Shown here piece by piece: positions 4,751 to 8,061 of a stretch of 64,000 nt of DNA (position 1 is its first letter; each line of letters starts with the position of its first letter). Both the position numbers and the translations under genes were made by a program. The notes under the pieces were generated by a model that ran no database searches, was not told where the DNA came from, and saw nothing but the letters and a program-made list of their open reading frames with translations. The stretch spans positions 434,001 to 498,000 of the forward strand of contig NZ_LHVH01000035.1 of assembly GCF_001269885.1 (NCBI RefSeq), in the 5' to 3' direction. The DNA comes from Pseudomonas kilonensis. Lineage in GTDB: Bacteria; Pseudomonadota; Gammaproteobacteria; Pseudomonadales; Pseudomonadaceae.

Positions 4751-5011
4751 ATGCTTGCGCCCAAAGACCTCCTCGACGCCCTGAGCGGCCACGCCTCCCG
4801 TATCTTGAGCGGTGACACGCCGCTGCCCAAAAGCGAAATCGAAAGCCAGTTCAAAGCCCTGCTGCAAAGCGGCTTCAGCAAGCTGGACCTGGTAAGCCGG
4901 GAAGAATTCGACAGTCAGATGGTCGTGCTGGCCCGGACCCGGGCGCGGCTTGAAAGCCTGGAGGCCAAGGTTGCCGAGCTGGAAGCGCGACTGGCTCCGG
5001 CCCAGCAATAA
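4751..5011 (+). CDS. ubiK: Ubiquinone biosynthesis accessory factor UbiK (BMFP family)
   Basis: An 86-residue protein of the BMFP/UbiK family. The N-terminal part (LAPKDLLDALSGHASRIL) is an amphipathic helix for membrane contact and the C-terminal part (about 50-82, LARTRARLESLEAKVAELEARL) a coiled coil that makes trimers. UbiK binds UbiJ and supports aerobic ubiquinone synthesis in E. coli. The in-frame open region extends far upstream, but the ATG at 4751 matches the family start. The position between glnK and comM is that of the PAO1 homologue. Confidence 0.85.
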   Translation: MLAPKDLLDALSGHASRILSGDTPLPKSEIESQFKALLQSGFSKLDLVSREEFDSQMVVLARTRARLESLEAKVAELEARLAPAQQ

Positions 5012-5029
5012 GCAACCCCTGCGGGCCAC

Positions 5030-6301
5030 TCAACCACTCGCAGCGTGTTGAGACGGGGCCAGTGCCAGCGGCAGCTCCAGGATAAACACCGCGCCCCTGC
5101 CCGGCCCGGCGCTCTGCACGGTCAGATCGCCGCCCATCTCGTGCGCAGCCAGGATGCAGCTGTGCAGGCCAAAGCCGTGACCGTCGACACGCGTGGTGAA
5201 GCCGTGCTCGAACACCCGCGCAAGATTGTCCTGCGAAATCCCCTCGCCATTGTCCTCGATCTCGACCCGCACGCGCTCATCGTCAATGGTCTTCAGGCGC
5301 AGGATGATCTGCGGCGGCCGGTTCGTACCCGCGTCCAGCGCCTGCTTGGCGTTGTTGATCAGATTGACCAGGATCTGCAGCACTCGGTGCTTGTCCAGCG
5401 GCATTTGCGGGATATCACTGAATTCCTTGATCAGCGTGATGTGGTGGCGGGCCAGGGACACATCACAAATGCGCACGACATCCTCGACCAGCTCTCGCAA
5501 CGAGCCCGGCTCCAGCACGCTGGCGTTGCCGGCGTAGGATTGCTGGGTGGCGACGATTTCCTTGATGTGGTCGATTCGGCGGGTCAACTGCGCCAACTCG
5601 GCGATCATGCCCTGCTGCTCGACGGCCAGCGCGTCGGCCAGCTTGTCGAGATAGTCGGGTAGCGCGCGCCCTTTCGGATCGCTGCTGATGAAGTCACCAA
5701 GATCATCGGGATGCTCCTTCATCAACTGAGCGACCTTGGCCACCCCTGGCCCCTTGGACGTATGCACCTTCTCGTAGAGGACCTGGGCTGACACATTCAC
5801 GCTATTGAGCACATTGCCCACGTTGTGCAGCACATTGGTGGCGATCTCCGCCATGCCGGCCCGGCGCGCGGTGGTGACCAGTTCGGCCTGTGCCTCGCGC
5901 AACTCGTCGTTGACCTTGGCCAATTGCTGCGGACTGGGGATCTTCAGGGCCGCCGGCACCAGCCGGACCAGCAGGATGGCGGTAATCACCGAGGCAATCG
6001 CGGTGATCACCTTGACCAGCGCCATCAGCCAGTAATAGGGCTGCCAGATGGTCAGGATCTCCATCACATGGCTGGTCCCGCAGGCCAGGATAAACACGCC
6101 AAAGGCCGCGAGCATCCAGTCAAACGGCACGTCCTTGCGCTTGTGGATAAAGTACAGGAGGGTGAAGGGGATGGTGACGTAGGACAGGGCGATCAAGCCA
6201 TCGGCGATCACATTGGTCCACAGCAGATCCGGACGCCACATGTAGCAATGCCCGTGGGGCATGAAGCGCTTGTCGGTTAACAGCGCCAGCAGATCGTTCA
6301 T
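5030..6301 (-). CDS. Sensor histidine kinase with ethylene-receptor-like membrane domain
   Basis: A 423-residue membrane histidine kinase. Three membrane helices (about residues 28-50, 62-82, 90-115) form a domain resembling the ethylene-binding domain of plant ETR1. Taking ETR1 from memory, its ligand/copper residues D25, Y32, I35, P36, I62, C65 and H69 all have counterparts here at a constant offset (D34, Y41, I44, P45, I71, C74, H78). The third helix also matches (KVITAI...LLVRLVP). A short linker leads to the H-box with His159 (NVLHNVGNVLNSV), then HATPase_c N, G1 and G2 boxes (NLINNAKQAL, DNGEGI, GHGFGLHS). There is no GAF, PAS or receiver domain, and no response regulator nearby. ATG 6301 has GAGGA seven bases upstream; GTG 6307 is the alternative. 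The gene is absent at this place in PAO1, as I recall. Ethylene binding is inferred. Confidence 0.85.
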   Translation of the reverse strand: MNDLLALLTDKRFMPHGHCYMWRPDLLWTNVIADGLIALSYVTIPFTLLYFIHKRKDVPFDWMLAAFGVFILACGTSHVMEILTIWQPYYWLMALVKVITAIASVITAILLVRLVPAALKIPSPQQLAKVNDELREAQAELVTTARRAGMAEIATNVLHNVGNVLNSVNVSAQVLYEKVHTSKGPGVAKVAQLMKEHPDDLGDFISSDPKGRALPDYLDKLADALAVEQQGMIAELAQLTRRIDHIKEIVATQQSYAGNASVLEPGSLRELVEDVVRICDVSLARHHITLIKEFSDIPQMPLDKHRVLQILVNLINNAKQALDAGTNRPPQIILRLKTIDDERVRVEIEDNGEGISQDNLARVFEHGFTTRVDGHGFGLHSCILAAHEMGGDLTVQSAGPGRGAVFILELPLALAPSQHAASG

Positions 6302-6567
6302 GGCCACTTCCTCGTTGTGCCGTTGATACCGCCAAGTGCCGACTGGGCAAATCGCAGTCTAGCAGAGGGTCCTTCCCGGGCATTTTGCGTGGCCAGGTGA
6401 GGCGGTGGTATCGGCTACCGCATCCCGCTTGCCGCCCCTTGGCTGTCACTTGCCCTCGAAACATCCTGCCAAATTTTCCCCCATCAATTTCCGCGCCCAA
6501 GTTCGTCCCCACGACTAACCTTCCAGAGCCGCAGGACGCGGCGCCCTATTCACTCAAGGAATGATTC

Positions 6568-8061
6568 ATGTCGCTTGCCATCGTCCACAGCCGCGCCCAA
6601 GTAGGTGTCGAGGCTCCTGCTGTTACCGTTGAAGTCCACCTGGCCAATGGCTTGCCGTCGCTGACGATGGTTGGCCTGCCGGAGGCGGCGGTGAAGGAAA
6701 GCAAGGATCGGGTGCGCAGCGCGATCATCAATTCGGGGCTGAACTTCCCGGCACGACGCATCACCCTGAACCTGGCGCCGGCAGACCTGCCAAAGGACGG
6801 CGGACGCTTCGACCTGGCCATCGCCCTGGGGATCCTGTCGGCCAGCGTGCAGGTGCCAACGCTGACGCTGGACGACGTGGAATGCCTTGGTGAACTGGCC
6901 TTGTCCGGCGCGGTACGACCGGTGCGCGGGGTATTGCCCGCGGCGCTGGCGGCGCGCAAGGCCGGGCGCATGCTGGTGGTGCCGCGGGCCAATGCCGAGG
7001 AGGCCTGCCTGGCCTCGGGGCTGAAGGTGATCGCCGTGGACCATCTGCTCGAAGCGGTGGCGCATTTCAACGGCCACACGCCGGTAGAGCCGTTCGTTTC
7101 CAATGGACTGCTCTCGGCCAGCAAGCCCTACCCCGACCTGAATGAAGTACAAGGCCAGGCCGGGGCCAAGCGGGCCTTGCTGATTGCCGCCGCGGGGGCT
7201 CATAACCTGCTGTTCAGTGGGCCACCGGGCACCGGCAAGACCCTGCTGGCGAGCCGTTTGCCAGGGCTGTTGCCACCGTTGGCCGAAAGCGAAGCCCTGG
7301 AGGTCGCGGCCATCCAGTCGGTGGCCAGTTGCATACCGTTGAGCCACTGGCCGCAACGCCCGTTTCGCCAACCACACCACTCGGCTTCCGGCCCGGCGCT
7401 GGTGGGTGGCGGGTCAAAGCCGCAGCCAGGGGAGATCACCCTCGCCCACCATGGCGTGCTGTTTCTGGATGAGCTGCCGGAATTTGACCGCAGGGTACTG
7501 GAGGTCTTGAGAGAGCCGCTGGAGTCTGGACACATCGTGGTGTCTCGCGCCCGTGACCGAGTACGCTTCCCGGCGCGTTTCCAGTTGGTGGCGGCAATGA
7601 ATCCTTGCCCCTGTGGATATCTTGGCGAGCCCAGCGGACGCTGCTGCTGTACACCGGACATGGTGCAGCGCTACCGCAACAAACTCTCCGGACCGCTGCT
7701 GGACCGCATCGACCTGCACCTGACCGTCGCCCGGGAAGCCACGGCGTTGAACCCCAAGCGCGAATCCGGAGACGATACCGCCACGGTCGCCGAGCAGGTG
7801 GCCGAGGCCCGGGAGCGTCAGCACAAGCGCCAGGGCTGCGCCAACGCCTTCCTCGATCTGCCGGGGTTGCGTCAGCATTGCAAGTTATCCACAACCGATG
7901 AAACCTGGCTGGAAACCGCCTGCGAACGGCTGACCCTGTCGTTGCGTGCCGCCCACCGCTTGCTCAAGGTCGCCCGGACGCTGGCGGACCTGGAGCAAGC
8001 GGGGTGTATCCGCCGCGAGCATCTGGCCGAAGCATTGCAGTATCGGCCGACTAACCCCTGA
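6568..8061 (+). CDS. comM: ComM/YifB family Mg-chelatase-like AAA+ ATPase
   Basis: A 497-residue YifB/ComM protein. The N-terminal ChlI-like domain (about 1-180) has the Lon-protease-like fold pattern LPSLTMVGLPEAAVKESKDRV. It is followed by an AAA+ module with Walker A GPPGTGKT, Walker B LFLDELPEF and arginine-finger region DRVRFPARF, and a four-cysteine cluster (CPCGYLGEPSGRCCC). ComM is a hexameric helicase that promotes branch migration when transformed DNA is integrated in naturally competent bacteria. Standard length and start, with AAGGA at eight bases. The 266 bp before it (6302-6567) show no gene. Confidence 0.93.
   Translation: MSLAIVHSRAQVGVEAPAVTVEVHLANGLPSLTMVGLPEAAVKESKDRVRSAIINSGLNFPARRITLNLAPADLPKDGGRFDLAIALGILSASVQVPTLTLDDVECLGELALSGAVRPVRGVLPAALAARKAGRMLVVPRANAEEACLASGLKVIAVDHLLEAVAHFNGHTPVEPFVSNGLLSASKPYPDLNEVQGQAGAKRALLIAAAGAHNLLFSGPPGTGKTLLASRLPGLLPPLAESEALEVAAIQSVASCIPLSHWPQRPFRQPHHSASGPALVGGGSKPQPGEITLAHHGVLFLDELPEFDRRVLEVLREPLESGHIVVSRARDRVRFPARFQLVAAMNPCPCGYLGEPSGRCCCTPDMVQRYRNKLSGPLLDRIDLHLTVAREATALNPKRESGDDTATVAEQVAEARERQHKRQGCANAFLDLPGLRQHCKLSTTDETWLETACERLTLSLRAAHRLLKVARTLADLEQAGCIRREHLAEALQYRPTNP

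Follow-up and report, generated by a model that had tools for sequence, protein, structure and literature searches.

Which ligand does an orphan histidine kinase of Pseudomonas kilonensis sense through a membrane domain that recalls the plant ethylene receptors, and to which protein would it pass its signal? The gene lies at 5030–6301 on the minus strand of the window, the 64,000-nucleotide stretch of DNA that was analysed, and its open reading frame runs from an ATG at 6301 to a stop codon ending at 5030, encoding 423 amino acids. The assignment is supported by Pfam matches to PF25487 and PF02518 and by relatives in 23 of 398 sampled Pseudomonas genomes (hereafter the carriers). GAGGAA (6308–6313, minus strand), six bases before the ATG, is a probable ribosome-binding site, and a GTG two codons upstream provides an alternative start that would give a 425-residue version.

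The membrane domain belongs to the ETR1_N family

A Pfam search matched residues 26–121 (5939–6226, minus strand) to ETR1_N (PF25487) with 126 bits against a cut-off of 27 (E = 5.5e-37), and the alignment covered positions 2–97 of the 97 in the profile. The first-pass annotation had placed the protein among ethylene-binding domains (EBDs) because of seven ethylene- and copper-binding residues, and had proposed a profile search, which bears this placement out. All seven (D34, Y41, I44, P45, I71, C74 and H78) are present in the 423-residue frame at the positions it gave, and all seven are kept in 23 of 23 carriers. A chance pattern was considered, and is ruled out by the profile match together with this conservation. 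By profile and residues, therefore, the EBD kinase is a member of the ethylene-binding-domain family. This is unsurprising, since proteobacterial EBDs are known and one of them, in Azospirillum, is described as binding ethylene (PMC11819568).

In Arabidopsis ETR1, the copper site is described as D25, C65 and H69 (PMC12643061), and ethylene binding as requiring I35, P36 and I62 in addition to C65 and H69 (PMC6586836). D34 (6200–6202, minus strand) is the counterpart of D25, while C74 (6080–6082, minus strand) and H78 (6068–6070, minus strand) are the counterparts of the Cu(I) ligands C65 and H69. A constant offset of nine to ETR1, as claimed earlier, fits six residues when published residue numbers are compared. 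For the seventh, we take Y32 of ETR1 to be the counterpart of Y41.

We obtained an AlphaFold2 model of the whole protein (mean pLDDT 66, pTM 0.49, 17 sequences). It predicts three helices in the EBD (24–54, 61–86 and 90–120), followed by a linker helix (124–147) and long paired helices at 151–181, which include H159, and 213–258. With modest confidence, the model places D34 in helix 1; C74 and H78 are both in helix 2, separated by one turn, and would thus lie on the same helix face. The best 50 of 713 fold matches were kinase catalytic parts, with mitochondrial protein kinases of that fold, and included no EBD; phmmer against solved chains gave no best stretch reaching residues 1–183 at E ≤ 1.

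Directly before helix 1 lies a P-H-G-x-C-x-x-W motif (residues 15–22; 6236–6259, minus strand) that is shared by bacterial EBDs. Each of 33 Pseudomonas rows (33 of 33) has both H16 and C19. Outside Pseudomonas, both are kept in 36 of 39 loci that have C74/H78, versus one of five that do not (Fisher p = 0.001, from rows that are not independent). The motif may contribute to the copper site, or may be a built-in copper-loading site absent from plant receptors; to our knowledge, ETR1 lacks it. The five loci without both ligands, from 44 EBD loci outside Pseudomonas, indicate that an ethylene sensor cannot be assumed from EBD membership alone. In one genus (g377), two related 555-residue EBD proteins (L132 and L133) carry Arg in place of H78 and are missing the I-P pair; other members of the genus retain all seven residues. 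These two proteins may descend from a receptor and now serve another function.

The kinase half is shared with other sensors

GAF, PAS and HisKA were absent among the eight Pfam families that matched the protein at E ≤ 1. The absence of GAF and PAS noted in the first-pass annotation thus stands, but it does not make the architecture unique. EBD kinases lacking both occur elsewhere, both by Pfam (L026 and L029, the latter with a HisKA match below cut-off) and, judged by sequence, in L138, L141, L142 and L145.

The ATP-binding domain (residues 303–413; 5063–5395, minus strand) matched HATPase_c (PF02518) with 71 bits against a cut-off of 26.4. No Pfam phosphoacceptor domain of the HisKA type was matched at E ≤ 1, and the H-box reads LHNVGN. 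By this motif, H159 (5825–5827, minus strand) is the H-box His, which the first-pass annotation called phosphorylated; it is kept in 23 of 23 carriers, and we regard it as the presumed phosphoacceptor.

The linker and kinase module (residues 128–423; 5030–5920, minus strand) has four paralogues in its own genome, with 55–56% identity (353–334 bits); the next match scored 67 bits. Two of these paralogues carry DAHL sensors, a third has a region that matches dCache at a sub-threshold score, and the fourth is a long hybrid kinase with the shared module at its end. The sequence AGMAEIAT.VLHNVGN is common to the EBD kinase and all four. Identity to the paralogues was 53–63% around H159 versus 50–52% in the ATP domain, values near enough that shared partner choice is weakly tested by them. 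HN[VIL]GN was found in none of 44 EBD loci outside Pseudomonas, many of which end at 3.3 kb. We read the kinase half as belonging to a set of interchangeable modules whose H-box is unusual.

In a tree of 34 modules, ten EBD modules fell into two groups, one of them sister to the hybrid-kinase modules, and the EBD and hybrid-kinase modules together formed one branch (support 96/90). A single joining of EBD and module is not supported by this division, which implies either two joinings or one joining with later module transfer. The hybrid kinase of the P. kilonensis genome (C9:1130774-1136296, partly L090) has the end module nearest to those of the EBD kinases. In another carrier, G123, an in-frame TAG interrupts the kinase part of the EBD kinase gene (G123:C23:302591-303466), leaving an open frame of 253 amino acids.

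The H-box also bears on the direction of phosphate flow. The residue after H159 is Asn rather than Glu or Asp, so that H-N-V-G-N replaces H-E/D-x-x-N/T, and Asn160 and Asn163 (HNxGN) are kept, with H159, in 23 of 23 carriers. By the roles of the H-box positions in HisKA kinases, an Asn after the His would weaken autophosphorylation and an Asn four residues after it would serve dephosphorylation. The Asn after H159 makes a mostly phosphatase role of the EBD kinase conceivable. In its full form, such a reading would make the protein mainly an ethylene-controlled phosphatase of regulators phosphorylated by other kinases with the same module, and we think this improbable. The same H-box occurs in all the paralogues, including one beside regulators, and some of these must be kinases, or the family would never phosphorylate its regulators. 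In addition, the ATP-binding domain looks intact, and in one carrier (G148) the EBD kinase is the sole member of the family.

The kinase family is linked to one receiver family

The first-pass annotation had reported that no response regulator is adjacent and that the target is unknown. We searched the 64-kb window by tblastn with four receiver queries, a search that other receiver types would escape and that alone covers the window beyond about 13 kb, and found no response regulator. The first statement is thus sustained within that search. The second is revised, since the genomic neighbourhoods of related kinases suggest a target.

In the P. kilonensis genome, one of the DAHL kinases clusters with genes for REC-PAS-GGDEF-EAL, REC-GGDEF-EAL and REC-HisKA-HATPase proteins, the last of 469 amino acids. 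Using the receiver domain of the REC-GGDEF-EAL protein as query, we defined a receiver family; the four members scanned by Pfam (three in this genome and one in G148) comprised REC-(PAS)-GGDEF-EAL proteins and one REC-kinase. Among 149 sampled Pseudomonas genomes, the kinase family occurred in 58, the receiver family in 60 and both in 58 (Fisher p = 1.5e-39, which is descriptive only as the genomes share ancestry), and the two receiver-only genomes had weak matches of 42–44% identity. A kinase-family gene lay within 6 kb of a receiver-family gene in 58 of 58 genomes, and the same was true of the sole kinase gene in all 38 single-kinase genomes. Counted by gene over 101 kinase and 65 receiver places, 59 of the 101 kinase-family genes were within 6 kb of a receiver and 42 were near no entered receiver place.

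Three receivers of the family were found in 22 of the 23 carriers and one in G148. G148 has a single kinase of the family, its EBD kinase (69% identity to the P. kilonensis protein), and a single receiver, a REC-PAS-GGDEF-EAL protein encoded by the convergent neighbour of the kinase gene; the coding ends, without stop codons, overlap by eight bases. Being convergent, the two genes do not form one transcription unit, and G148 is the only one of the 23 carriers in which the EBD kinase adjoins a receiver-family regulator. In the three other carriers in which the gene is away from its common location, no receiver of the family was found within the 15–16 kb inspected. A CheY-like gene near the EBD kinase in two of these (G069 and G078) was considered as a partner and rejected: it sits in a chemotaxis-like cluster, and no such gene turned up in the other 15 sources examined.

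Alternatively, the protein might be an ethylene receptor that is coupled to a different phosphate acceptor, either the REC-HisKA-HATPase protein encoded in the DAHL cluster (a relay) or some unrelated receiver, and c-di-GMP would then not be its direct output. That the receiver family includes a REC-kinase, that the EBD kinase stands alone in the window as far as the four queries reach, and that AzoEtr1 of Azospirillum brasilense is described as followed by a 135-residue receiver (PMC11819568) are all in keeping with this. So is a locus from another family of the class (L063 6292-7930, genome G615), in which the gene for an EBD-HisKA kinase overlaps that for a small single-receiver protein, an arrangement that resembles AzoEtr1 and its receiver. 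In G148, however, the search for the receiver family brought up the REC-PAS-GGDEF-EAL protein alone and no REC-kinase, and we consider this route unlikely, if less so than the phosphatase role.

Distribution, gene location and link to plant ethylene

The first-pass annotation had suggested looking for the gene across Pseudomonas, which identified the 23 carriers. In a family sample of 148 genomes, which included other Pseudomonas, the EBD protein was found in the P. kilonensis genome only; 12 of 369 genomes in a class sample and 28 of 398 in a phylum sample passed the EBD cut-off. Ten named Pseudomonas records hold relatives of the EBD kinase with 84–97% identity, in a search that finds close relatives only. 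They are P. brassicacearum (two subspecies), P. thivervalensis, P. frederiksbergensis, P. mediterranea, P. tehranensis, P. agronomica, P. uvaldensis, P. zanjanensis and one Pseudomonas without a species name. Among the open-licence papers found, judged by title and the start of the abstract, none reported an EBD protein in Pseudomonas, and an earlier listing is possible. The available text of the genome paper of P. thivervalensis SC5 names acdS together with a homologue of tlpQ in connection with ethylene, and the term 'ethylene receptor' occurs in it zero times (PMC8515041).

In 11 of 17 compared flanks, the EBD kinase gene lies beside one gene that we take to be yifB, with a presumed ubiK on the other side. 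About 2.7 kb separates it from yifB in L045, and up to about 6 kb from ubiK in L042, L044, L050 and L065. At this spot (5011–6568 in the window), the intervals to either side of the gene carry about 1–6 kb of additional DNA in some relatives, namely these five loci, as if insertions were taken up here. The gene is at other locations in G069, G078, G148 and G394, in the first three near genes resembling what we take to be dnaN-recF-gyrB; the flanks L063 and L064 belong to other families. Neighbours that we take to be amtB and glnK were rejected as a hint to the target, as none of these neighbours was seen in the stretch inspected in G069, G078, G148 and G394.

ACC deaminase served as an indirect measure of plant association, which the first-pass annotation had proposed to compare with presence of the gene. 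The enzyme (TIGR01274, above cut-off) was present in 13 of 23 carriers versus 5 of 57 non-carriers (Fisher p = 1.4e-5, weakened by shared ancestry), and absent from 10 carriers, including G069, G078 and G394. The hybrid kinase gene mentioned above lies 4.5 kb, start to start, from an ACC deaminase gene, and the two are within 5 kb in four of the 13 acdS-positive carriers (G000, G280, G388 and G266).

The greater frequency of ACC deaminase in carriers also speaks to the ligand. The EBD might detect copper, or else a different soft metal or a small alkene, at the same site: its residues define a Cu(I) site first, and in 5 of the 44 loci outside Pseudomonas C74 and H78 are not both kept. We regard such a sensor as marginally more improbable than the phosphatase role, given the association with ACC deaminase, the retention of all seven residues throughout the carriers and the ethylene binding described for AzoEtr1 with the same seven (PMC11819568).

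A proposed route from ethylene to c-di-GMP

Taken together, we favour, at a probability of roughly 55%, a bacterial ethylene receptor comparable to ETR1, SynEtr1 and AzoEtr1, with a kinase that exchanges phosphate with REC-(PAS)-GGDEF-EAL regulators and so shifts c-di-GMP. By analogy with ETR1, C74 and H78 would hold a Cu(I) ion within the membrane helices, with D34 close by; ethylene would bind to this ion, and binding would alter how active the attached kinase is. Phosphate would be exchanged between this kinase and regulators encoded elsewhere, beside a DAHL kinase that carries the same module, and ethylene would thereby shift c-di-GMP, and hence attachment and biofilm. Ethylene is described as inhibiting ETR1 kinase activity, with indirect evidence for SynEtr1 (PMC11819568), and by the same analogy a fall in kinase output might be expected. 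The sign of the change in c-di-GMP would depend on which of the two domains, GGDEF or EAL, prevails.

Known receptors share parts of this design. ETR1 resembles the Pseudomonas protein in having an EBD with Cu(I) at C65/H69 and D25 (PMC6586836, PMC12643061) and a kinase-type C-terminal part. It differs in containing GAF and receiver domains. ETR1 is also described as signalling mostly without phosphotransfer (PMC11819568). SynEtr1 of Synechocystis is likewise an EBD histidine kinase and signals by phosphotransfer; unlike what we propose here, it is also a light receptor and acts via a transcription-type regulator and a small RNA (PMC11819568). AzoEtr1 is, like the Pseudomonas protein, a proteobacterial histidine kinase with an N-terminal three-helix EBD and the seven residues, but it has 525 amino acids and a PAS domain, and the receiver that follows is without an output domain (PMC11819568).

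For the output, CfcA of Pseudomonas putida offers a likeness, being an unlinked kinase proposed to phosphorylate the c-di-GMP-making regulator CfcR (PMC4951495, PMC6849547). As a response regulator, CfcR combines REC, PAS and GGDEF/EAL domains, whereas CfcA itself is a CHASE3/GAF hybrid kinase (PMC4951495). In Vibrio furnissii, a ligand lowers the activity of the kinase AsrK and thereby c-di-GMP via the partner regulator AsrR, but the sensor is a dCache domain for AI-2 and the output is HD-GYP (PMC11796354).

We stop just short of even odds for the broader idea of an attachment switch with several sensors, ethylene being one of its inputs, in which a kinase module common to these sensors leads to shared REC-(PAS)-GGDEF-EAL enzymes, because 42 of the 101 kinase-family genes lie near no entered receiver place and three of the four relocated carriers lack a receiver neighbour. 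Bacterial EBDs were already known, and other EBD kinases without GAF or PAS exist; what is new here is the likely target. In A. brasilense, ethylene is described as lowering biofilm and c-di-GMP by a route stated as unknown, and direct evidence for bacterial ethylene receptors is described for very few species (PMC11819568). If the proposed route is true, it would provide a direct link for the unexplained fall in c-di-GMP under ethylene in Azospirillum. The genome evidence ties an ethylene-receptor-type kinase of Pseudomonas to particular c-di-GMP enzymes and makes the question of ethylene and biofilm testable. As ACC deaminase lowers plant ethylene and is commoner in carriers, some of these bacteria may both read and edit the ethylene of their host.
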